DNA of 31,550 nt, from positions 1 to 31,550 of IMG/VR virus record IMGVR_UViG_3300038441_000729, one strand, 5' to 3'. Below, piece after piece: positions 1,050 to 31,499 of the stretch (positions within the stretch are counted from its first letter, which is position 1; every line of letters begins with the position of its first letter). The notes beneath the pieces are model-generated. The model did not search any database. It saw only the letters and a list, made by a program, of their open reading frames with translations, and was not told the origin of the DNA. The position numbers were made by a program, and so were the translations under genes. Origin of the DNA: a virus.

Positions 1050-1114
1050 GCGACGGAGACGGGCACACCTACTGCGCGAAGTGCGGCTGGTGGACCAAAG
1101 GCTGCGGACACTGA
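1046..1114 (+). CDS. 22-aa Cys/His microprotein
   Basis: Starts at a GTG that overlaps the previous stop (GTGA). The product is tiny but ordered: cysteines at 10, 13 and 20 and histidine at 22 give C-x2-C-x6-C-x-H, enough ligands for one zinc ion. The ribosome site is poor, so expression would depend on translational coupling. The stop codon ends where the promoter/operator at 1114 begins. It may be real or a chance reading frame. Confidence 0.4.
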   Translation: MSDGDGHTYCAKCGWWTKGCGH

Positions 1115-1151
1115 GTCAGGGGTTGACACCCCTAAGTCTAGCCCTTAGATT
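1114..1151 (+). promoter_or_regulatory. Promoter A with embedded inverted-repeat operator
   Basis: AGTCAGGGGTTGACA at 1114-1128 is one mismatch from the element found three more times on the other strand. Its right half supplies a perfect -35 box (TTGACA, 1123-1128). After exactly 17 bases comes TAGATT (1146-1151), a good actinomycete -10. Transcription should start near 1158, about 40 bases before the ATG at 1199. The region from -10 to 1178 is nearly identical to the leader of promoter D at 31435-31467 on the other strand. Confidence 0.8.
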
Positions 1152-3820: not shown

Positions 3821-5259
3821 GAATCAGCCGGGCAGAACTGGCCGGGCTCGGCCCCGCCGAGCTCGCCCGGCTCGAGAGCGTCCTTGAGCAGACCGTCCAG
3901 GAGCGCGAAGCGGGCAAGGTACCGTGGCTGTGCGGGCGGCCGGATTGCGACGGACGACCCCACCAGGGACGCATGGGCCCCCACGCCCGTGCGTCCCAGG
4001 TCCCGCCCGACTGGGAGTGGGACGTCTGGATGCTCCTGGCAGGCCGAGGCTTCGGCAAGACCCGCGTGGGCGCCGAGTGGTCCATCCGCCAGGCACGCAC
4101 CCTTGAGCGCGGTGCACTCATCGGCCCGACGGCCGCCGACACCCGCGACATCCTCGTCCAGGGCGAGTCCGGCATCCTTGCGTGCGCCCCCGCCACCTTC
4201 CGGCCGGTCTACAACCCGTCCAAGAGGCAGCTGACCTACCCCAACGGCGCCATCCAGACCCTGTACTCGGCCGACGAGCCAAACCGCCTGCGCGGCCCCC
4301 AGCATCATTACGGCTGGTTCGATGAGATGGCCGCATGGCGCTACCTGCAAGCGGCCTGGGACATGGCGCAGCTCGGCATGCGCCTCGGCGAGCACCCGCA
4401 GATCTGCGTCACCACCACCCCCCGGCCGCTGCCCCTGATCAAGCAGCTGGCCAAGGACCCGATGACCGCCCTGACCAAGGGCACCACGTACGACAACCTG
4501 CACAACCTGGCGCCCACCTTCCAGCGCGCGGTCATCGCGAAGTACGAGGGCACCACCCTCGGACGGCAGGAACTCGATGCAGAAGTACTCGAAGACCTTC
4601 CGGGCGCGCTCGTTGCGCGCAGGCACATTGACGGGGCGCGGGTGGAGAGCGCACCTGCGCTCATCGACATTGTCATTGGCATGGACCCTGCGGGGACTGG
4701 CCAGGGCGATGAGACGGGCCTGGTCGTGGTCGGCCGGGCGGCGGACGGCAAGAGCTATGTCCTCCACGACGGCTCGGAGAAGCTGAGCCCCAACGACGCA
4801 GCCAACCGGGCCTGGGGGCTCATGGAGACCTGGGGCGGGTCCCTGCTCATCGTGGAGGACAACGGCGGCAAGGACTGGATTGAATCCGTCCTGCGGGCCG
4901 TCTACAAGGAGCGCGAGGGTGCGTCCAACGCCGCGCCCCTGCGCCGCGTCAACGCCTCCCAGGGCAAGCGCCTGCGCGCCCAGCCGGTCGCCATGCGCTA
5001 TGAGCAGGGCCGCGTGTGCCACGTGGGCGTCTTCCCCGATCTCGAAGACCAGCTCACCACCTGGATTCCGGAAGAGGACCCCACCGCGTCCCCGGACCGC
5101 CTTGACGCGATGGTGCACGCCGTCGCGCACCTGATGAAGAAGTACGACCGGTCCGAGACCCAGTTCCTCAACCCGCATGCCCTCAAGGGCCGCACGTCTA
5201 CCGGCGAGCACCCGGCCATTGCGGCCCGCCGCCGCGCGGCTGAACGCCGGGCATCATAG
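3817..5259 (+). CDS. terL: Terminase large subunit
   Basis: 480 aa from GTG 3817. The ATPase half has a Walker A motif AGRGFGKT (75-82) and Walker B YGWFDE (165-170), with TTTPRP near 199-204 as the coupling motif. The nuclease half has the three acidic clusters of the RNase-H fold: IGMDPAGTGQGDET (D290), IVEDNGGKDW (E347/D348) and SPDRLDAMVHA (D427/D430). It is the motor and cutter that packages DNA into the prohead. An N-terminal CGRPDC pair (39-44) may bind a metal. Length and motif order are normal. Confidence 0.95.
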   Translation: MRISRAELAGLGPAELARLESVLEQTVQEREAGKVPWLCGRPDCDGRPHQGRMGPHARASQVPPDWEWDVWMLLAGRGFGKTRVGAEWSIRQARTLERGALIGPTAADTRDILVQGESGILACAPATFRPVYNPSKRQLTYPNGAIQTLYSADEPNRLRGPQHHYGWFDEMAAWRYLQAAWDMAQLGMRLGEHPQICVTTTPRPLPLIKQLAKDPMTALTKGTTYDNLHNLAPTFQRAVIAKYEGTTLGRQELDAEVLEDLPGALVARRHIDGARVESAPALIDIVIGMDPAGTGQGDETGLVVVGRAADGKSYVLHDGSEKLSPNDAANRAWGLMETWGGSLLIVEDNGGKDWIESVLRAVYKEREGASNAAPLRRVNASQGKRLRAQPVAMRYEQGRVCHVGVFPDLEDQLTTWIPEEDPTASPDRLDAMVHAVAHLMKKYDRSETQFLNPHALKGRTSTGEHPAIAARRRAAERRAS

Positions 5260-5266
5260 GAGCAAC

Positions 5267-5551
5267 ATGAACGCGATCACCCTGCTCATCGCAGCCTTGG
5301 CCACCGCCCGCATCACCCGCCTCTTCACCCGTGACCGCATCACGCACGCCCTCCGCCGCCGCGTCCTGCTCCGCCTGGATGCAGATGGCCTTCTGGCGTA
5401 CCTGATCGTCTGCGACTGGTGTACGTCGGTGTACGTCTCGGCAGGCGTCGTCGCCCTCGTCATCTGGGGCGGGACCGTCGGCTGGTGGGTCATGGCCGCA
5501 CTCGCGTTCAGCCACGTGGCCGGATGGCTGGCCTCAAAGGAAGGTGAGTGA
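5267..5551 (+). CDS. Small membrane protein, DUF1360-like
   Basis: 94 aa with hydrophobic segments at about 1-15 and 42-90 and an arginine-rich stretch between them. The motif LIVCDWCTSVYVSAGV (two cysteines spaced C-x2-C before a membrane helix) resembles DUF1360-type phage membrane proteins, which are often found beside terminase or portal genes. A clear AGGAG lies 5 bases before the ATG. Role unknown. The stop overlaps the portal start (TGATG). Confidence 0.7.
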   Translation: MNAITLLIAALATARITRLFTRDRITHALRRRVLLRLDADGLLAYLIVCDWCTSVYVSAGVVALVIWGGTVGWWVMAALAFSHVAGWLASKEGE

Positions 5552-7353
5552 TGGGCATCCTGGACAAACTGCGTGGCACCCCTGCACCCGGCGGCACCGA
5601 GCGCAAGCAGCCCGCCAAGTCGATGGTGGCAGCGGCCATGCCGCTCTCGGGGCCCGGTGTGCGCGCCGTCGCCCGGGCGCGCACCGCCTCGACCACCGAC
5701 CAGTGGCAGAAAGAGGCCTGGTACTACTTCGACGTCATCGGGGAGGCGCGCAGCCCCCTGGTGTGGATCGCCAACGCCGTCTCCCAGGCCGACGTCTACG
5801 CCACGGAGCTCGACCCCGACACCGACAAGCCGACGGGTCCCTCCGACGACGCGATGGCCAGCGCAGCAGCACGGCAGGTGCTCGGCGGCCCGCAGCAGCG
5901 CATGGGGCTGCTGCGGCTGATCGCGCTGTGCTGGCAGGTCCCCGGAGAGATGTGGATCATCATCCGGCCGACCGGCGCCGGAAAGCCCGACCAGTGGCAC
6001 GTCCTGTCCGGCTCCCGTCTCGAGGCCAAGGGCGACACCTGGCAGTACACCGATCCGACCACTCTCCAGCGGGTCACCCTCACCTCGCGGGACCGGCTGA
6101 TCCGGGCCTGGTGTCCCCACCCGGACGACCAGACCAAGGCGGACTCCGCCATGCGTCCCGCCCTCCCCGTCTGCCGTGAGATCGAAAAGGCCTCGCAGAA
6201 CATCGCGGCCCGCCTGGACTCCCGCATCGCCACCAACGGCATCGCCATCCTGGCCGACGAGCTGTCCGCCTCGGGTGACGACTTCATGGCCAGCCTGATG
6301 AACGCGGCCGAGCTCGGACTCCAGAACCCCGGGCAGGCCTCCTCCCAGGTCCCGGTGGCGTTCAACGCCCCCGGTGAGCTCATCGCCAACGGCGGTGCGT
6401 TCGCCCACTTCGACCTCAACACCGCCTTTGACGGCAGCGTCGTCGACCTGCGGGACAACGGCCTGGGGCGCCTGGCCAAGGCCCTCGACATGCCCAACGA
6501 CGTCGCCGAGGGCACGCAGGGCGAATCGAACCACTGGACCGCCTGGCAGGTGGAGGAGTCCACTTACAAGATCTACATTGAGCCGCTGCTCAAGACCATC
6601 GGCGACGTCCTGTCCGAGCACTGGTTCCGGCCCGCGCTCATCCTCATGGGCATGGCGCCGGACCGGGCCGCACGCTTCGAGCTCGGCTGGGACACCACCG
6701 CCATCGTCGCCCGCCCCGACGACACGGAGAACCTGCGGGACCTGCACGATCGCATCCTGATCAGCGACGAGTACATGCTGACGGAGAACGGCGTGCCCAT
6801 GGACGCCATGCCGTCCAGTGAGGAGCGCACGCGCCGCTACCTCGAAAAGGTCGTGCTCGGTGCGCCCACGCTGCTCGCCGACCCCAACGTCGCCGACGCG
6901 GTGGGCCTGGACATCGAGGTGCAGCCGGTGGCGGCCGGTGTTGATGCGGAGATCGGGGCGGGCGGTGAGCTTGAGACCCCCGAGCCTGAGCCTGCGCCGG
7001 TCCCGAACGCACTGCCCGGCACGCGCGGCGATGCGCCGGACAACGAGCCTCCTGAGGGCCTGACCGCTGCCGCTGAAGTCCTCGTCATGCAGGCGCTGGA
7101 CCGGGCAGGCGGACGGCTCCTCACCAACCAGAACAGGGGCCGCTTCAAGGACGTGCCCAGGCACGAGCTCTACCGGCAGATCCGGCCTGAGGACGCAGGC
7201 TCGCTGGTCGAGATCAAGTTCGCCGACGAGCTCGCACGCTCGTTCGCCGTGCGCCCCGGTGCGCTGCGCGTGGCACTTGAGATGTACGTGACCAAGCTCC
7301 TGTCCACGGGTGAGGCCTACGACCCGGACGAACTGCGCTGGTACCTCCGGTGA
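5551..7353 (+). CDS. Portal protein
   Basis: 600 aa. Its position between the large terminase and a MuF-like protein, its length and its mixed alpha/beta core (including DQWQKEAWYYFDVIGEARS and the FDGSVVDLRDNGL segment near residue 290) fit the dodecameric portal of siphophages, the ring at the head vertex through which DNA passes. The C-terminal ~150 residues begin with a Pro/Glu-rich linker and then a helical domain. I chose ATG 5551 (TGATG overlap); GTG 5548 would add one residue. Identification rests on context plus general resemblance. Confidence 0.85.
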   Translation: MGILDKLRGTPAPGGTERKQPAKSMVAAAMPLSGPGVRAVARARTASTTDQWQKEAWYYFDVIGEARSPLVWIANAVSQADVYATELDPDTDKPTGPSDDAMASAAARQVLGGPQQRMGLLRLIALCWQVPGEMWIIIRPTGAGKPDQWHVLSGSRLEAKGDTWQYTDPTTLQRVTLTSRDRLIRAWCPHPDDQTKADSAMRPALPVCREIEKASQNIAARLDSRIATNGIAILADELSASGDDFMASLMNAAELGLQNPGQASSQVPVAFNAPGELIANGGAFAHFDLNTAFDGSVVDLRDNGLGRLAKALDMPNDVAEGTQGESNHWTAWQVEESTYKIYIEPLLKTIGDVLSEHWFRPALILMGMAPDRAARFELGWDTTAIVARPDDTENLRDLHDRILISDEYMLTENGVPMDAMPSSEERTRRYLEKVVLGAPTLLADPNVADAVGLDIEVQPVAAGVDAEIGAGGELETPEPEPAPVPNALPGTRGDAPDNEPPEGLTAAAEVLVMQALDRAGGRLLTNQNRGRFKDVPRHELYRQIRPEDAGSLVEIKFADELARSFAVRPGALRVALEMYVTKLLSTGEAYDPDELRWYLR

Positions 7354-8162
7354 CCACGCCCCCGCTCGGCGACGATCCGCACCTGCCGCAGCGGCTGCGC
7401 GCGCAGGGCTTCATCCGGGACGGGGAGGAGCGCATCGCACGCCGCTGGTTCGGAAGCCTGACCCGCTTCCTGGACCAGGTGCGCGGTCCGGTCCTGCGTG
7501 ATGGCGGGGTTGACCCCAGGCGCGTGAGCGACCACACGGGCTTCTGGACGGAGCAGGTGGACACGGAGATCGTGCCGGAGGTGCGGGGCGTTCTTAGCGA
7601 CGCCTGGCGCCGCGTGAGCGCTGCCGGGGACCCGCCGACCGACCCCTACGTCTCGCGCTACCTCAACGAGGTGGGCAACCGCATGAGCAACACGCCCGAC
7701 GAGGTGTACGCGCTCATCGTGCGCGAGGTCGAACGCGGCATCACCGAGGGCCTGGCACTGGAGCGGGTGCGCGACGAGATCCAGACGATCCTGACCTCCT
7801 CCGGCACGCCGTACTGGAAGAACAGGGCCATGACGGTGGCGCGCACCGAGACCATGGGCGCCGTCAACGCGGGCATCTTCCGGGGCGCGCAGCTTGAGGC
7901 CGAGGCCCGGGGCGACGTGGCGCCGTTCAAGCAGTGGCTGGCCACCGAGGACAACCGGACCCGCCCCACGCACCGTGCGGCCGACCAGCAGCGCACACTG
8001 CTCTCAGAACCCTTTGTGGTCGGCGGTGCGCGGCTCCTCTTCCCAGGGGACCCCCGTGGCCCGGCAGGCGAAGTGATCAACTGTCGATGTAGTATGCTTC
8101 CAGTTGTGCTGGGTGAGGTACTCGACTGGACATCCAGGCAGCGAGCAAGGGACGCAACATGA
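7350..8162 (+). CDS. MuF-like minor head protein
   Basis: 270 aa, GTG start overlapping the portal stop. The C-terminal half carries the head-morphogenesis (SPP1 gp7/Mu F) pattern: ARTETMGAVNAG near 165-176, KQWLATEDNRTRPTHR, then FPGDPRGPAGEVINCRCSM with the conserved Cys pair. Such proteins are carried inside the head in small numbers and associate with the portal. The last ~25 codons use less GC-rich codons (for example TGT, CGA, AGT, CTT, GTT) than the rest of the gene, matching the HNH gene that follows. Confidence 0.85.
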   Translation: MTTPPLGDDPHLPQRLRAQGFIRDGEERIARRWFGSLTRFLDQVRGPVLRDGGVDPRRVSDHTGFWTEQVDTEIVPEVRGVLSDAWRRVSAAGDPPTDPYVSRYLNEVGNRMSNTPDEVYALIVREVERGITEGLALERVRDEIQTILTSSGTPYWKNRAMTVARTETMGAVNAGIFRGAQLEAEARGDVAPFKQWLATEDNRTRPTHRAADQQRTLLSEPFVVGGARLLFPGDPRGPAGEVINCRCSMLPVVLGEVLDWTSRQRARDAT

Positions 8163-8650
8163 GCAGAGGCATACCCCGTGACCTGGCGTTCTTTCAGAAG
8201 CGCACGCGTGTGGAGGAGTCCGGATGCTGGGTGTGGACCAAGTTTCGGGCCCAGGCAGGTCACGGCAGGGGTGGTCTGTACGGGCGCACTTCCCGCCAGG
8301 GGGAGCAGCGTCCGGTTGGCGCGCACGTTCTGTCCTATGAGGTATTCAAGGGCCCCGTGCCCCCGGGCATGGAGGTGGACCACACGTGCTGCAACACGCT
8401 GTGCGTAAATCCGGAGCACCTCGAAGCGGTGACCCCTGCCGAGAACAACCGGCGGCGTTGGGCAGCGGGCAACGGTGCGAATCAGCACACCACAAAGGAG
8501 ACGTGTCCGACGCACGGCACCCCCTACGACATGGAGTCAAAGCGCGGGGACGGGCGTACCTTCAGATCATGTCGCGCCTGCTACCGCGACTATCAGCGTG
8601 AGTACCAGCGCGGTGTGCGCGCCCGACGAAAGGCACTTTCCAATGGCTGA
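8159..8650 (+). CDS. HNH endonuclease, probable homing-type insert
   Basis: 163 aa. An HNH_3-type core is visible at about 75-100: VDHTCCNTLCVNPEHLEAVT, with the catalytic H in VDH, the N in VNP and the H in PEHL. A C-terminal zinc-like part (CPTHGTPYDM ... CRACYRDY) resembles those of freestanding phage homing nucleases. Codon use is less GC-biased than in the flanking genes. It sits between two head genes with ATGA and 8-base overlaps. All this suggests a mobile intronless homing endonuclease rather than a virion component. Confidence 0.85.
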   Translation: MSRGIPRDLAFFQKRTRVEESGCWVWTKFRAQAGHGRGGLYGRTSRQGEQRPVGAHVLSYEVFKGPVPPGMEVDHTCCNTLCVNPEHLEAVTPAENNRRRWAAGNGANQHTTKETCPTHGTPYDMESKRGDGRTFRSCRACYRDYQREYQRGVRARRKALSNG

Positions 8651-8810
8651 CCCCACGTGGCTCAACGACTACCGGGTGAACAACGGACTGCCCGTCATCC
8701 CCGAGGACCCCGAGGCGGTGCAGGCGATGATCAACAACGCGGAGCTGCAAGTGGGCCAGGAACTCCAGATGTACCTGACGTACCGGCTCATGGTGGCGGT
8801 GACCCCGTGA
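8643..8810 (+). CDS. 55-aa hypothetical protein in the head region
   Basis: Starts inside the last codons of the HNH gene. It encodes a small helical protein (MADPTWLNDYRVNNG ...) with no recognised family. The next gene starts in a GTGA overlap. Compact translational coupling with head genes suggests a minor structural or assembly role, but this is context only. Confidence 0.65.
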   Translation: MADPTWLNDYRVNNGLPVIPEDPEAVQAMINNAELQVGQELQMYLTYRLMVAVTP

Positions 8811-8986
8811 CCGGGCTGGAGCAGGAGATGCTGCGCACGGTGGCCGCCAAGGCCCTGGAACTCGTGCAGCGCTGGAGCGACGGTGAGGCAGCACGCACCC
8901 ACCAGGTCCAGGAGCTCGCACTCGCGCTGCGCGCACTGGAGTCCGCCGAGGTGGATTCGGGCACATGGGAGGAACTGCATGTCTAG
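8807..8986 (+). CDS. 59-aa helical hypothetical protein
   Basis: GTG start in a GTGA overlap with the preceding gene; ends 8 bases into the protease gene. The product is one or two amphipathic helices (EMLRTVAAKALELVQRW; QELALALRALESAEV). No family recognised. Small helical proteins of this size next to the capsid protease can be assembly helpers, which is only a possibility here. Confidence 0.6.
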   Translation: MTGLEQEMLRTVAAKALELVQRWSDGEAARTHQVQELALALRALESAEVDSGTWEELHV

Positions 8987-10172
8987 GACGTGGAGCGCCG
9001 TTCTGGCGCGTCTGGGCGTCCCCACCGGGGACCGGCGCATCATCGCCCCCGGGGCGCTCACCTCCCGGGACCTGCCGCTGCCGCTCATGTGGCAGCGCGT
9101 GTCCGATTCCGGGCACAGCGGGGCCGTCACGGTGGGCGCGATCACCTCGCTCACCATCGACAACGAGTCGGGCATGGTCACGGCGAGCGGCACGTGGCTT
9201 CCCGTGCGCGGCTCGGACGATGCGCAGCGCCAGGCCGAGGCAGGCGTGACGGGCCCGTCCGTCGACCTGTTCGACGACGTCGACATCATGGAAGTCCAGA
9301 CGCTGGTGGAGGCCGGGGTCGTCGGCCCCAACGTCATGGACAACTTCGACGACATCCAGTACGCCATGGACGATGACGGGATGATCGTCATCACGCAGGC
9401 GCGTATCGCGGGCGCCACGCTGGTCCAGATCCCTGCGTTCGCCGGAGTGTCCATCTCCATGGCGGACGATGCAGAGTCCATGGGGGCTGACTGGCAGCTC
9501 ACGGCCAGTGCTGCGCCCGTGCTGCCGCCCGCCGAGTGGTTCACGCGGCCGGACCTGGACGAGTTGACTCCGATCACGGTGTCGGACACCGGGCGGGTCT
9601 TCGGGCACATCGCGGGCTGGACGCAGTGCCACGTGGGCCTGCCGGGCTGCGTCACGGCCCCGTTCAGCGCCTCGGGATACGCCTACTTCCACGTGGCCGA
9701 ACAGGCGACCCAGGAAGGGGCTGTGCTGCCCGTGGGGACGCTGGTGGCCGGGCCCCGGCATGCTGACCCGCAGCTGGCCTTCCAGGCCGCCCAGCAGCAC
9801 TATGACGACCCCAGCGCGGCTGTGGCGCGGGTGGTGGCCGGTGAGGACGAGTTCGGCATCTGGGTCGCGGGGTGGGTCCTGCCGGGTGCCAGCGAGGCTG
9901 CGAGGCAGGTGTTCATGTCCTCTCCGGTGTCGGGTGACTGGCGCCGGATCGGCGGTTCGCTGGAACTGATCGCAGTCTGTTCGGTCAATACGCCTGGCTT
10001 TCCAGTGCCACGAGCGAAGGTGGCCTTCGGCCTGAACGTGCAGAAAACGCTTATTGCGTCAGGGGTGCAACCCGTGAGCGGCCCTTACACAGAGGCTGAG
10101 CAGCCCGTCATGGGACAGGAAGAGGTGGCCCGCGCCAGGTGGCGGTGGGCCGAAGCTACGGAGGGACGGTAG
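8979..10172 (+). CDS. Probable capsid maturation protease
   Basis: 397 aa with a strong GGGAGG site before the ATG. The N-terminal domain (to about 165) has the plan of phage prohead proteases: RIIAPGALTSRDLPLPLMWQ, then a GHSG turn and alternating beta strands ending in ARIAGATLVQIPAFAGVSIS. The C-terminal ~200 residues form a second domain (HIAGWTQCHVGLPGC, HVAEQATQEGAVLPVG, later RRIGGSLELIAVCSV), as in many actinophage versions. Expected job: trimming capsid delta domains before DNA entry. The catalytic residues were not assigned with certainty. Confidence 0.75.
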   Translation: MSRTWSAVLARLGVPTGDRRIIAPGALTSRDLPLPLMWQRVSDSGHSGAVTVGAITSLTIDNESGMVTASGTWLPVRGSDDAQRQAEAGVTGPSVDLFDDVDIMEVQTLVEAGVVGPNVMDNFDDIQYAMDDDGMIVITQARIAGATLVQIPAFAGVSISMADDAESMGADWQLTASAAPVLPPAEWFTRPDLDELTPITVSDTGRVFGHIAGWTQCHVGLPGCVTAPFSASGYAYFHVAEQATQEGAVLPVGTLVAGPRHADPQLAFQAAQQHYDDPSAAVARVVAGEDEFGIWVAGWVLPGASEAARQVFMSSPVSGDWRRIGGSLELIAVCSVNTPGFPVPRAKVAFGLNVQKTLIASGVQPVSGPYTEAEQPVMGQEEVARARWRWAEATEGR

Positions 10173-10335: not shown

Positions 10336-10373
10336 TCTAGCGTCTTAACAGCCCTATGTACTACCTATGTCGA

Positions 10374-10445
10374 TGTAGTCAGCACTCCAGGTTAATTCAG
10401 ATGTGACCTCCCGTGTGTAACGGGGATAGGGAAGTGCTGACTACA
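10374..10445. repeat. Nested inverted repeat in a convergent gap
   Basis: TGTAGTCAGCACT (10374-10386) pairs perfectly with 10433-10445, a 13-bp stem enclosing 46 bases. Inside is a second small hairpin, CCCGT-GTGTA-ACGGG. An 11-bp direct repeat ACAGCCCTATG flanks the structure (10348-10358 and 10462-10472). It lies between the ends of converging genes, is less GC-rich than its surroundings, and contains no gene. It may terminate the rightward transcript; a recombination or protein-binding site is an alternative. Confidence 0.6.
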
Positions 10446-10460
10446 TTGGACATCGTATGA

Positions 10461-10482
10461 CACAGCCCTATGAAGGGCTGTG
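10461..10482 (-). terminator. Hairpin over the stop codon of the RHH gene
   Basis: CACAGCCCT-ATGA-AGGGCTGTG, a perfect 9-bp stem with a 4-base loop, overlaps the stop of the leftward regulator gene. It probably ends its transcript, and it could act in both directions. Confidence 0.7.
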
Positions 10483-11028
10483 GATGGCGACCCCCCGGCG
10501 CCGGGGCCCAAGGGCACTCAGGAGCTGGTCAAGCGACGTGCGCGGTACGGCATACCAGCGCCCCTGCGATCCCCCCGGCAGCTCGGCTGCACCCTCCGCT
10601 GCCGCAACCAGATCAGCCACGTCCCAGAAGCCGGGCCCCTGAACCACCCTCACCAGGGCCCATTCGGCCGGGCGCAGCTTCCAGGCTTCGGCGCAGGGCG
10701 CCCCGAGGCATACGGCAGTCATCCGCCGCGCGACTTGCTGAGCCGGACTCAGCGGCTTTCCGTTACGGTCCGTAGGCGGCAGGACGATCGCAGCGCATGC
10801 GTGGCGCTGCTTCTTCGGCCCCGTCTGCTTGAGCATCCACGTGAGCGGAGGGAGCAGCGGGCTGTCGTGCACCGCTGCGGGGGCCTCCATGCCGATCTGC
10901 ACCAAGGAGCGCACTGCTTCGGACGGATTCACTGCGTGGACTTCAGCCCACTGCTCGATGCGCTCCCACAGCCCGTCGGGGATGCGCAGGGCGCGAGGCG
11001 TATTGCGCCCCGATGTCTCTTGGGTCAT
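10468..11028 (-). CDS. Ribbon-helix-helix DNA-binding regulator, candidate phage repressor
   Basis: 186 aa on the strand opposite to all neighbouring structural genes. Residues about 11-48 fit an RHH domain: strand RALRIPD, helix GLWERIEQWAEVHA, turn VNP, helix SEAVRSLVQIGM. RHH proteins bind DNA as paired dimers on short inverted repeats. The remaining ~140 residues form an unrecognised, mostly helical domain. The ATG at 11028 has no Shine-Dalgarno, and a TAGTAT -10 ends 7 bases upstream, so the mRNA is probably leaderless. Its promoter contains TGTCAGGGGTTGACA, which recurs at three other promoters, suggesting autoregulation. A repressor or lysogeny role is inferred. Convergent hairpin at 10461-10482. 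Confidence 0.8.
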   Translation of the reverse strand: MTQETSGRNTPRALRIPDGLWERIEQWAEVHAVNPSEAVRSLVQIGMEAPAAVHDSPLLPPLTWMLKQTGPKKQRHACAAIVLPPTDRNGKPLSPAQQVARRMTAVCLGAPCAEAWKLRPAEWALVRVVQGPGFWDVADLVAAAEGAAELPGGSQGRWYAVPRTSLDQLLSALGPRRRGVAIHSPS

Positions 11029-11032
11029 GTGC

Positions 11033-11070
11033 TACATACTATCACTAAGTCTATATGTCAACCCCTGACA
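11033..11070 (-). promoter_or_regulatory. Promoter B with perfect operator, for the RHH gene
   Basis: On the minus strand TGTCAGGGGTTGACA occupies 11070-11056, with the -35 TTGACA at 11061-11056. Two -10 candidates exist: TAGTAT (11041-11036, 14-base spacer) and TATGTA (11038-11033, 17-base spacer). The first places the transcript start exactly at the ATG. No ribosome site is present, consistent with a leaderless transcript. Confidence 0.75.
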
Positions 11071-11173
11071 AGTTGACGAATGGCGTACCCTGTGATCAGC
11101 CGTGGCAGCTGAGCTGTGAGCCGTGCCGCAGCGACGTGACCTATCCGTCCCTGCCGCACGAAAGGACTCCGCC
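11071..11173 (+). other. Capsid gene 5' region
   Basis: About 100 bases between the operator and the capsid ATG. TTGACG at 11073-11078 could be a weak rightward -35, but no good -10 follows at 16-18 bases. AAAGGA lies 7 bases before the ATG at 11174. No gene is seen here. Confidence 0.35.
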
Positions 11174-12922
11174 ATGGCAGACGACATCACCCCCGAGGCA
11201 CCCCAGGCGTTCGACCCGACCACGCTGGACGACGCGGCCCTCACCGCCGAGTTCGCCCGGGTCCAGGAGCGCGGCCGTGCCCTCGCGGCCCAGGCCGAGT
11301 TCGCCGACGGGGAGGCGGCCGAGTTCTCGGAGCTCGCCGAGCGCCTCCCCCTGCTTCAGGCCGAGACTGCTGCGCGCATCGAGCGCGCCACGGCGCAACA
11401 GGCGCAGCGCGACGCGTTCGCCAGCATCGCGGTGCCGACCATCCCGGCAGTGCAGCCCATCAAGGCCCCGTCCGAGCCCGTGGCGGCCCCTGTGGCGGCC
11501 TCGCAGGCCCCGGTGGTCCCCTCGGTCGCCGAGATGTCCACGCAGGCTCCTGCGGCCCCTCAGAGCGTTTCGCAGCGCAAGGGCGTCACCGCGCACCTCG
11601 CGCCGCACACCGCCGGACTGCTTCAGCGCGGCGTGGGCACCGAGTTCACCGGCCTCACCGAGATCTCCGAGGCCATGCTGCGCTCCGGCCAGATGCTCGG
11701 TGCCCAGGGTGAGGGCCGCTACGGCATCGCGCAGTTCCAGCGCCACCGCGAGGGTGACGCGGTCATCGACCCGCGCGACGGCGGCAACGAGACCATGCGC
11801 AAGATCCGCGCGACCCGCAACGAGTTCAACCTGTCCGGCGGCACCCTGCGCGACACCGTGCAGCGCCACCTCGACAAGGGCGGAAGCCTCACTGCTGCGG
11901 CCGGATGGTGCGCGCCGTCCGAGAACGACTACGACCTCTGCACCAACTGGGCGGCGGGTGTCGGCATCCTGGACCTGCCGACCGTCACGGCCACGCGCGG
12001 CGGCATCAACTACACCGACGAGCCCGACTTCCCGACGATCTACGCGAACGCCATCGCGGCGGGCGGCGGCTCCAACCTCCTCACGGAAGCCCAGGTCATC
12101 GCCGACACGGCCAAGACCTGCTCCGTGATCCCCTGCCCGACGTTCGAGGACCGGCGCCTTGACGTCGCGGCCCTCTGCATCCGGGTCAGCTTCCTTCAGG
12201 CGGCGGGCTACCCCGAGGTCGTCAACGCCTGGACGGACGGTCTTCTCGCTGCGCATGAGCAGGAGATCAACCGCAACATCATCGCGCAGATCCTCACCCG
12301 TGCCGGGGCCGCGACCGTGTTCGCGCACCCCGACCCGGATCCGGCGGGCGGCCCCGGTGACTCGTTCACCAGCTCCGTGCTCGCGGCCGTGGAGCTCGCG
12401 CGCGAGGACCTGATGTACCGGTTCATGCTGCCGCGCAACTCCACCATCGAGGTCGTGCTCCCCTTCTGGGTCCTGGCCCAGATCCGCGCCGACCTCTCCC
12501 GCCGCAACGGCGTCAACCTGCTGAACGTCTCGGACGCCGAGATCTCCAGCATGTTCACGCTGCGCGGTGCGCGCGTCCAGTTCGTGCGCGGATGGCAGGA
12601 CGGTCTCATCACGGGCGGTGCGCTGAGCGCCACGTTCCCCGGCGGCGACGCTGCGACCCCGTTCATGACCGCGCTGCCCCAGACGGTGGACTTCCTCGCG
12701 TGGCCCGCCGGATCGGTCGTCCTGGCCCGTCAGGACGTCGTCACCCTCACCAACGTGTACGACGCGGCCAGCCTGGCTGTGAACCAGTACACGAGCCTGT
12801 TCGCGGAGGAGGGCTACGCGCCGCTCTTCCCGTGCCCGGGTCAGCGTCTCTACACCGTCGCCGGTTGCGTCGGCGGCATCACGGGCTCGAACTCCATCAA
12901 CTGCGTGGACGAGACTCCGTAA
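11174..12922 (+). CDS. Major capsid protein, HK97-type, with N-terminal delta-like domain
   Basis: 582 aa. Residues about 1-100 are charged and helical (LTAEFARVQERGRALAAQAE ...), like the scaffold-acting delta domain that the protease removes, followed by an Ala/Pro/Val linker. The rest fits the HK97 capsid fold, including LNVSDAEISSMFTLRGARVQ and the late AWPAGSVVLARQDVVTL. It would build the icosahedral shell. Start chosen at ATG 11174 because of AAAGGA at 7 bases; an upstream in-frame start at 11123 lacks support. A strong hairpin follows the stop. Its length is above average because of the N-terminal part. Confidence 0.85.
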   Translation: MADDITPEAPQAFDPTTLDDAALTAEFARVQERGRALAAQAEFADGEAAEFSELAERLPLLQAETAARIERATAQQAQRDAFASIAVPTIPAVQPIKAPSEPVAAPVAASQAPVVPSVAEMSTQAPAAPQSVSQRKGVTAHLAPHTAGLLQRGVGTEFTGLTEISEAMLRSGQMLGAQGEGRYGIAQFQRHREGDAVIDPRDGGNETMRKIRATRNEFNLSGGTLRDTVQRHLDKGGSLTAAAGWCAPSENDYDLCTNWAAGVGILDLPTVTATRGGINYTDEPDFPTIYANAIAAGGGSNLLTEAQVIADTAKTCSVIPCPTFEDRRLDVAALCIRVSFLQAAGYPEVVNAWTDGLLAAHEQEINRNIIAQILTRAGAATVFAHPDPDPAGGPGDSFTSSVLAAVELAREDLMYRFMLPRNSTIEVVLPFWVLAQIRADLSRRNGVNLLNVSDAEISSMFTLRGARVQFVRGWQDGLITGGALSATFPGGDAATPFMTALPQTVDFLAWPAGSVVLARQDVVTLTNVYDAASLAVNQYTSLFAEEGYAPLFPCPGQRLYTVAGCVGGITGSNSINCVDETP

Positions 12923-28646: not shown

Positions 28647-28685
28647 AGACTACCCGGTCCGGAGACCGGGTGTCAACCCCTGACA
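28647..28685 (-). promoter_or_regulatory. Promoter C with perfect operator
   Basis: TGTCAGGGGTTGACA on the minus strand at 28685-28671, with the -35 TTGACA at 28676-28671. TAGTCT at 28652-28647 is a -10 candidate with an 18-base spacer. Transcript start near 28640, about 20 bases before the ATG at 28620. It should serve the 55-aa gene and, by read-through, the SSB-like gene. Confidence 0.75.
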
Positions 28686-30720: not shown

Positions 30721-30914
30721 CATTCCTCCTGGTTACAGGGCTCGTTGTAGTCGTTGACGTGCTTGGTAAGCGTTCCGTCAGGCTTGACCCGGTAATCCAG
30801 GGAGCAGCCGGGGGCCGGACAGATACGCCTGACCTCTTCGGGGGCGCAGGCGCCCGGGTGTCGGCGGGACCGGGCGCAGGGCGCGCCCGTCGCCGTCGTC
30901 TTGGTGCAGATCAC
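30720..30914 (-). CDS. 64-aa Cys-rich small protein
   Basis: GTG start at 30914 overlapping the previous stop (GTGA), with GGGAGC upstream. An earlier in-frame ATG at 30986 would add 24 residues without a ribosome site. Cysteines at CTKT, APCARS, GACAP, ICPAPGCS and PCNQ, plus histidines, suggest one or two zinc sites. No family recognised. Confidence 0.6.
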   Translation of the reverse strand: MICTKTTATGAPCARSRRHPGACAPEEVRRICPAPGCSLDYRVKPDGTLTKHVNDYNEPCNQEE

Positions 30915-31417
30915 TTGGAGCTCCCGTGCTGGCAAGAGCCACGGTGGCTCCCCGCCGGGGCCCAGCTGTCCTCGTAGCAGCTGCACTTACCGGCCGGAGC
31001 CTCCACGCGGTGGGCGTACAGCGGGGTCTGGGCGAGCGCCTGGCCCATCCGGCGGTGCCACTCGTCGGATCCGACCTGGACGTACGCACTGTCGCCGTAC
31101 TCGGCCGGGTTGCCCGGGCACCCGTTCCAGTGGCGGCCCCGGGGGGCCACGCCCCCACCGGTAGAGCGGCAGGTGCACTTACTGACCGGCGCCTCAGGGC
31201 ATTCGATGTAGTGGTTGTCCGTACCGCTGCGTTCCCGCTCGATGGCCGGGCAGGTGCAGTTGCTGTCGACGCCGTAGCCGGTGACCTCGTCGATAGCCGC
31301 GAAGATCCCGGCGTTGTCGAGGGTGTTGACGGCGTCCTCGACGTCGCCACCCCAGGCGATCTTGCGCAGCGTCCGCAGTGCCTCGATGACCTCGGGGGTG
31401 ATGTTCGGCTTGTTCAT
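30911..31417 (-). CDS. Protein with three tandem CxC-H-x3-C knuckles
   Basis: 168 aa, first gene after promoter D, with GGAAAGGGAATC before the ATG. Residues 1-50 are helical (TPEVIEALRTLRKIAW ...). Then the motif C-x-C-x(10-12)-H-x3-C occurs three times: NCTC ... HYIEC, KCTC ... HWNGC, KCSC ... HRGSC. Each has four ligands for one zinc. Between knuckles 2 and 3 is a helix region (SDEWHRRMGQALAQTPLYAH). I do not recognise the family. DNA, RNA or protein contact are all possible. Confidence 0.75.
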   Translation of the reverse strand: MNKPNITPEVIEALRTLRKIAWGGDVEDAVNTLDNAGIFAAIDEVTGYGVDSNCTCPAIERERSGTDNHYIECPEAPVSKCTCRSTGGGVAPRGRHWNGCPGNPAEYGDSAYVQVGSDEWHRRMGQALAQTPLYAHRVEAPAGKCSCYEDSWAPAGSHRGSCQHGSSK

Positions 31418-31461: not shown

Positions 31462-31499
31462 AATCTACGCCGGACCCTGGGGGCTGTCAACCCCTGACA
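31462..31499 (-). promoter_or_regulatory. Promoter D with perfect operator
   Basis: On the minus strand TGTCAGGGGTTGACA at 31499-31485, -35 at 31490-31485, exactly 17 bases, then -10 TAGATT at 31467-31462. Start near 31455, leader about 38 bases to ATG 31417. The -10 and the following 27 bases match promoter A except for two positions. It should drive the small-gene block and partly the exonuclease. 31500-31550 shows no gene. Confidence 0.8.

Follow-up and report, generated by a model that had tools for sequence, protein, structure and literature searches.

Genes and homologues at the locus

The DNA under study (31,550 nucleotides, referred to as the window) comes from a siphophage of a Streptomyces-type lineage, as a linear IMG/VR fragment of 31.5 kb. 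In bacterial genomes, relatives of its capsid protein were found in Streptomyces (n = 3) and Streptosporangium (n = 1). As stated in a preliminary description of this DNA, a leftward gene for a 186-amino-acid RHH protein lies between the protease and capsid genes. It occupies positions 10468-11028 on the minus strand, starts with ATG, and is flanked by a protease-fusion gene plus a small ORF (to 10335) on one side and by the major capsid gene (11174-12922) on the other. Judged by its homologues, two of which (L022 and L078) differ with a dN of 0.061 and a dS of 0.426 (ratio approximately 0.14, purifying selection), this 186-codon ORF is a protein-coding gene. Its GC content hardly differs from that of the genome (69.3 versus 68.0%), and its codon score was the lowest among the genes called.

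Relatives of the gene and of the locus were gathered via capsid, protease and profile searches. Homologues were present at the same locus in L022/L073-L076 and in L078; the copy in L080 is located downstream of the protease gene. No relatives were retrieved when phages, plasmids and IMG/VR were searched with the single protein. The phage and plasmid collections held no full-length relative, an RHH-family scan of genome contigs gave no match, and 393 Streptomyces genomes yielded marginal RHH-domain matches only. In L067 a full-length relative (4977-5522) was found 6 bp upstream of a gene for a 1356-aa fusion of primase and DNA polymerase A (5529-9599), which by our reading is an early-type place. 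A small HTH gene lies just ahead of this RHH relative.

Domain architecture of the RHH protein

The N-terminus (residues approximately 11-48; 10885-10998, minus strand) was delimited with PHROG, a structure model and Foldseek. Its assignment as an RHH domain is supported by the following: (i) a weak PHROG match to 'Arc-like repressor' over residues 7-42 (E = 0.004); (ii) a comparison of the family profile with the PDB, in which the top two matches, both weak, were the RHH proteins VapB26 (E = 0.24) and AmrZ (E = 0.79); (iii) the structure model, in which helices 18-30 and 35-48 fall within the first 50 or so residues, the ribbon strand being invisible in a monomer model. In Foldseek the model fitted an annotated RHH protein of a Gordonia phage with 0.9 Å over 37 columns, in support of the postulated RHH fold. 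The Pfam RHH models did not match the 186-aa protein, nor did any other Pfam or PADLOC entry. Relative L022 matched PF01402 with an E value of 6.6e-4, under the cut-off, and NCBIfam gave weak matches in one relative.

The RHH domain is followed by an insertion of the form H-x-C ... C ... C (H76, C78, C107 and C112; 10693-10803, minus strand), recognized in the family alignment and missing in L022/L078, in which the four residues might form a metal site. The additional C-terminal region that the preliminary description had left without a recognized fold is present, and structure prediction placed in it a domain at residues approximately 123-183 (10480-10662, minus strand), delimited by the model, by structure matches and by L091. 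This domain is predicted to adopt a ferredoxin-like β-α-β-β-α-β fold, with a pLDDT of about 80 in the domain; the mean pLDDT of the model, which was built from five sequences, was 70. Structure matches of the domain were to common folds only (Z of 6 or less). At the same locus L091 encodes an 87-aa protein which corresponds to the C-terminal domain alone.

Promoter and candidate operator of the RHH gene

The RHH gene has its own promoter, the elements of which are spread across 11033-11070 on the minus strand. A 15-bp box, TGTCAGGGGTTGACA (11056-11070), includes the -35 hexamer TTGACA (11056-11061), and two overlapping -10 candidates, TAGTAT (11036-11041) and TATGTA (11033-11038), are found at 11033-11041. 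TAGTAT ends 7 nt from the ATG; TATGTA is separated from TTGACA by 17 nt and ends 4 nt ahead of the ATG. A comparable geometry was seen in relatives, i.e. TGGACA-17-TATGCT-7-ATG in L022, TATGCT-7-ATG in L078, TATGCT-6-ATG in L080 and TTGACC-17-TACGTT-7-ATG in L067. Just one other among the 43 gene starts in the window is preceded by TANNNT at a distance of 5-8 nt. A strong or convincing Shine-Dalgarno sequence was not detected before the ATG, the longest match being GTGA. In S. coelicolor, 264 mRNAs have leaders shorter than 10 nt (PMC4681348). Because a good ribosome site is missing, the -10 spacing recurs in relatives and leaderless mRNAs are common in Streptomyces, the RHH mRNA is likely to be leaderless or nearly so, and both claims made earlier in this respect, namely a missing ribosome site and a -10 element that sets the start at the ATG (here also possibly slightly ahead of it), appear to hold.

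Autoregulation had been proposed via a perfect operator in this promoter. The box does contain the dyad TGTCA-N5-TGACA (11056-11070), yet its role as an RHH operator is unsupported, as boxes occur in relatives without the RHH gene (see below). DNA elements linked to the RHH gene itself are found nearer to the start codon. The first is TGATAGTATG (11035-11044, minus strand), the local copy of a GA..GTATG element, which has a single match in the window and is aligned with the promoters of relatives; around it the window promoter keeps CTTAGTGATAGTATG, alignable with CTAGTGACCGTATG. In L022, L078 and L080 a 14-bp tandem repeat extends over the -10 region (11/14, 12/14 and 10/13 matches at period 14, compared with at most 3 at period 13 or 15). 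This repeat is missing from the window promoter (4/14). Finally, the 14-mer TTGGACATCGTATG (10446-10459, plus strand) lies just past the RHH stop codon. The window has a single copy, and an identical one is present in the RHH promoters of L022/G013 and of L078; even with up to two mismatches allowed, no further copy was detected among the related sequences searched, so that in these the 14-mer is confined to RHH cassettes. Chance matches of a 14-mer to the whole window were obtained with 38 of 5,000 random promoters. Unlike the promoter copies of the relatives, the window copy is downstream of the RHH gene and on the other strand. These elements suggest that the RHH protein represses its own promoter only, near the -10 region and start codon. 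Autoregulation is thus plausible, with the RHH-linked DNA as a better candidate than the box, and TGATAGTATG near the -10 region is a candidate operator in the window.

An accessory cassette between conserved elements

In relatives without the RHH gene, the gap between the protease and capsid genes is mostly about 300-630 bp, as opposed to 1005 bp in this phage; a few of them have a gap of about 810-880 bp with other content. The L077 protease is 94% identical to that of L022. L077 has neither RHH gene nor box at the site, and its close relative L076 has both. In these two the site is flanked by the inverted repeat described below and, at the opposite end, by the start of the capsid gene. After the repeat, L077 has about 40 bp and then the capsid promoter element, and L076 has the RHH gene and the box. 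The presence or absence of the gene between adjoining genes, as seen in L076/L077 and in the gap lengths, fits an accessory insertion, and the gene has its own promoter. By these comparisons the RHH gene represents a moron-like cassette that a few relatives have and close ones lack. As in phage morons, defined in PMC4378225, one gene, equipped with a promoter and a hairpin of its own, is placed between genes that are adjacent in relatives. The cassette differs from morons in that it uses the early box of the lineage itself, is apparently leaderless, and has a putative terminator without a T-run.

A position far from any integrase had been noted, and indeed neither a tyrosine nor a serine integrase is encoded in the window; since the record is a linear fragment, this says little. 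Among 13 records searched, all of them fragments or of uncertain completeness, 12 had no integrase and one had one. On this distribution, and with only a few relatives carrying the gene, an immunity function is unsupported, with nothing beyond RHH homology pointing to it.

A long inverted repeat (10373-10446; arms 10373-10386 and 10433-10446) lies on the far side of the RHH gene and is a feature of the lineage, likely a bidirectional terminator or processing hairpin. Many relatives (L002, L004, L006, L010, L021, L076, L077, L078, L091, L099 and L103) have it in the gap from the small ORF to the capsid gene, whether or not they carry the RHH gene, and with arms mostly of 18-33 bp, typically CTAGACGGGTTAGACAGC. 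In the window (10371-10448) its sequence has diverged and the pairing is still strong. An exact 11-bp direct repeat, ACAGCCCTATG (10348-10358 and 10462-10472), flanks it. As the inverted repeat occurs without the RHH gene, it was rejected as part of that gene, and so was its reading, with the 11-bp direct repeats on either side, as a small transposable element. A second hairpin, CACAGCCCT-ATGA-AGGGCTGTG (10461-10482), spans the RHH stop codon and possibly marks the end of the RHH transcript. Neither structure is accompanied by a T-run. Together they may terminate transcription from the RHH promoter and so keep it from continuing, in antisense, through the protease gene.

On the other side, a promoter-like element of the capsid gene, TTGACGAATGGCGTACCCTGTGATCA (11073-11098, plus strand), diverges from the RHH promoter. 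It is kept in several relatives without the RHH gene. The element conserved in the window, L002, L021, L077 and L078 is TTGACSNNTGGCGTACYCTGTGATCA, with only 7 nt between the hexamer-like parts.

Distribution of the shared promoter box

The box of the RHH promoter is present at four promoters in the window, compared with 0.00 expected in shuffled sequences. TGTCAGGGGTTGACA occurs exactly at 11056, at 28671-28685 (minus strand; -10 TAGTCT), upstream of an apparently non-coding stretch, and at 31485-31499 (minus strand; -10 TAGATT), upstream of 30911-31417. The fourth copy, AGTCAGGGGTTGACA (1114-1128, plus strand; -10 TAGATT), has one mismatch. All four hold the -35 sequence TTGACA, and the 5-bp dyad is perfect in three of them. 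In other viral contigs, exact matches to the 15-mer were seen once per stretch, and a 51-nt query did not detect the box in known phages.

In the lineage, the box takes the form NGNCARGGGTTGACA and makes up the -35 region of presumably early promoters. It was found in two to six copies in each of nine contigs longer than 23 kb (G001, G002, G004, G006, G008, G009, G010, G013 and G024), in one copy in the shorter G003, and was absent from others. For a tally that started from TTGAC[AG] preceded by GGG, 41 TTGACA sites were collected from 11 lineage contigs. These GGGTTGACA sites gave the consensus NGNCA(G/A)GGGTTGACA, the conserved places of which are occupied by G (40/41), C (39/41), A (38/41) and G or A (39/41). 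Positions -7 (T in 20, A in 12, C in 4 and G in 5 sites) and -9 (T in 22, C in 13, A in 5 and G in 1) are variable, and the perfect dyad TGTCA...TGACA is limited to the three copies of this window; the dyad symmetry is hence unconserved. Most box sites share a -10/downstream sequence, TTTAMTTRAGWCATC or TAGATTTAAGTCATC, which the RHH promoters lack.

The box is mostly found in phages without an RHH gene at the capsid locus, and the box-rich contigs G001, G004, G008 and G010 lack the RHH family; the RHH_1 match in G010 is unrelated. G006 encodes, elsewhere in the contig, a 73-aa RHH protein of marginal similarity only. Next to the box lies the gene of a different candidate regulator. In all eight contigs that hold the early region, a divergent HTH gene of 70-75 codons (MDTENARVTRKEAAELAGV...) has one box directly upstream of it and is located at approximately 4417 in G001, 2518 in G004, 11466 in G006, 36454 in G008, 24032 in G010, 7945 in G013, 15300 in G024 and 4150 in G009. 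It is mostly leaderless in form (-10 TACCCT, 7 nt, ATG). Both the box and the HTH gene are missing from G007 and G018. The most fitting interpretation of the box is a lineage-wide early-promoter element, 'early' referring to the kind of genes that follow the boxes. Given the box contigs without RHH gene, the co-occurrence of HTH gene and box, and the boxless RHH promoter of L067, it would be watched by the divergent HTH protein, which on these patterns is likelier than the RHH protein to bind it and to regulate early promoters; the RHH protein might target the box in addition.

Possible role of the RHH protein

We favour, with reasonable confidence, the following overall picture. A moron-like cassette would have been inserted backwards in this Streptomyces-type siphophage lineage, with the conserved inverted repeat at one end and the promoter of the capsid gene at the other. 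As its promoter carries the early box of the lineage, the RHH gene is probably transcribed early, giving a leaderless or nearly leaderless transcript from which a protein composed of an RHH and a C-terminal, ferredoxin-like domain would be made. By binding RHH-linked DNA at the -10 region and start codon, this protein would repress just its own promoter, so that a burst of expression is followed by shut-off. The shared box would not be its operator, the small divergent HTH protein being the likelier binder; the accessory gene would simply borrow it. The C-terminal domain may be the working part, since it stands alone in L091, and it is probably the payload, directed at the host or at a defence system. 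From the architecture, and by analogy with the archaeal viruses mentioned below, our preferred guess is counter-defence or host takeover. The gene, its RHH homology, the presence or absence of the cassette, the spread of the box, its co-occurrence with the HTH gene and the purifying selection are visible in the sequences, whereas early timing, a leaderless start, autorepression, the operator and the role of the C-terminal domain are inferred from them.

Several known systems resemble parts of this arrangement. NikR consists of an RHH domain and an ACT-type C-terminal domain. The order of an RHH and a (here predicted) β-α-β-β-α-β domain is the same, but a sequence match to NikR was not detectable, the C-terminal domain has about 60 residues, the Cys/His insert is lacking in some relatives, and NikR was absent among the structure matches listed. 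With phage repressors of the Arc/Mnt/CopG type the protein has in common the RHH DNA-binding domain, a short regulator gene and likely autoregulation. It differs from them in its far greater length (186 aa), which includes the insertion and the ferredoxin-like domain, and in its location in an accessory cassette beside the capsid gene rather than in an immunity region. The stoperators of cluster A mycobacteriophages are short, asymmetric motifs with a TTGACA-like core at dispersed sites. The box has these properties as well, but its sequence differs, it is always at the -35 position of a promoter, and its upstream part is conserved.

One refinement of the favoured explanation is a bifunctional protein, autorepressor and counter-defence effector in one, comparable to AcrIIA1 or an Acr-Aca fusion. 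We regard it as tentative and rather unlikely. AcrIIA1 is a bifunctional anti-CRISPR autorepressor based on an HTH domain. In archaeal viruses, counter-defence is the predicted, and in part proven, role of dispersed genes under a shared early promoter, some of which have RHH domains (PMC11065993). Dispersed genes under a common early promoter, and a DNA-binding domain joined to a small variable, effector-like domain, are likewise seen here, in an accessory cassette that lies in the head region and has a promoter of the early type, and L091 encodes the C-terminal domain alone at the same locus. The scaffold is RHH instead of HTH, the PADLOC search with the protein gave no match, and the likeness is one of architecture. 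A more specific version, in which one chain on an RHH scaffold combines both activities and the slot under the lineage early box swaps full-length and effector-only forms, is slightly less probable still. If the C-terminal domain were a counter-defence effector, the box could be used to locate further genes of this kind in Streptomyces phages.

That the RHH protein instead serves as a switch in the timing of head-gene expression, delaying capsid transcription until late, is quite unlikely. Made early, the protein would bind between the back-to-back promoters, and the -35 hexamer of the RHH gene (11056-11061) and the capsid element (11073-11098) are indeed divergent and 11 bp apart. Several close relatives retain the capsid element without an RHH gene, so the lineage needs no RHH protein for this promoter, and the RHH-linked elements are on the gene side, not on the capsid side.

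The preliminary description went further in taking the box common to the four promoters as the RHH operator. The protein would then bind TGTCAGGGGTTGACA and silence all four promoters as an immunity or master repressor, which we consider very unlikely. The idea is attractive, given the perfect dyad in three of the four copies, the overlap of the box with every -35 element, and its presence in the RHH promoter in all of the carriers window, L022/G013 and L078; a late-arriving repressor could also target a pre-existing box. It conflicts with the boxes in many relatives without the RHH family, with a perfect dyad in only three of 41 sites, all of them in the window, -7 being T in 20 of them, and with L067, which shares the ribbon RTVRIP with L022 and has an RHH promoter without a box. 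Beside the box at early promoters it is the HTH gene that is found (8/8 contigs). The master-repressor idea is hence replaced by that of a lineage early box with the co-occurring HTH protein as its likely regulator. A stray antitoxin-like RHH gene of the VapB/ParD type, or a toxin-antitoxin remnant, is highly improbable: RHH antitoxins autoregulate and the profile matched VapB26 weakly, but neither the window nor L022/L078 has a toxin gene beside the RHH gene, and the C-terminal domain, which the model predicts to be folded, is conserved and stands alone in L091.

The stretch downstream of the promoter at 28685

The apparently non-coding stretch after the box promoter at 28685 is possibly an array of tRNA-like RNAs. 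Neither ARAGORN nor Rfam recognized anything in it, leaving the reading as tRNA unconfirmed. Such stretches follow one class of box promoters, located at 28685 (minus strand) in the window, 12203 in G001, 38295 in G004, 18850 in G006, 1985 in G008, 31316 in G010, 254 in G013 and 7466 in G024, and contain GGCGG..TAA.CGTGGCG and the T-arm-like motif GGTTCGAATCC.
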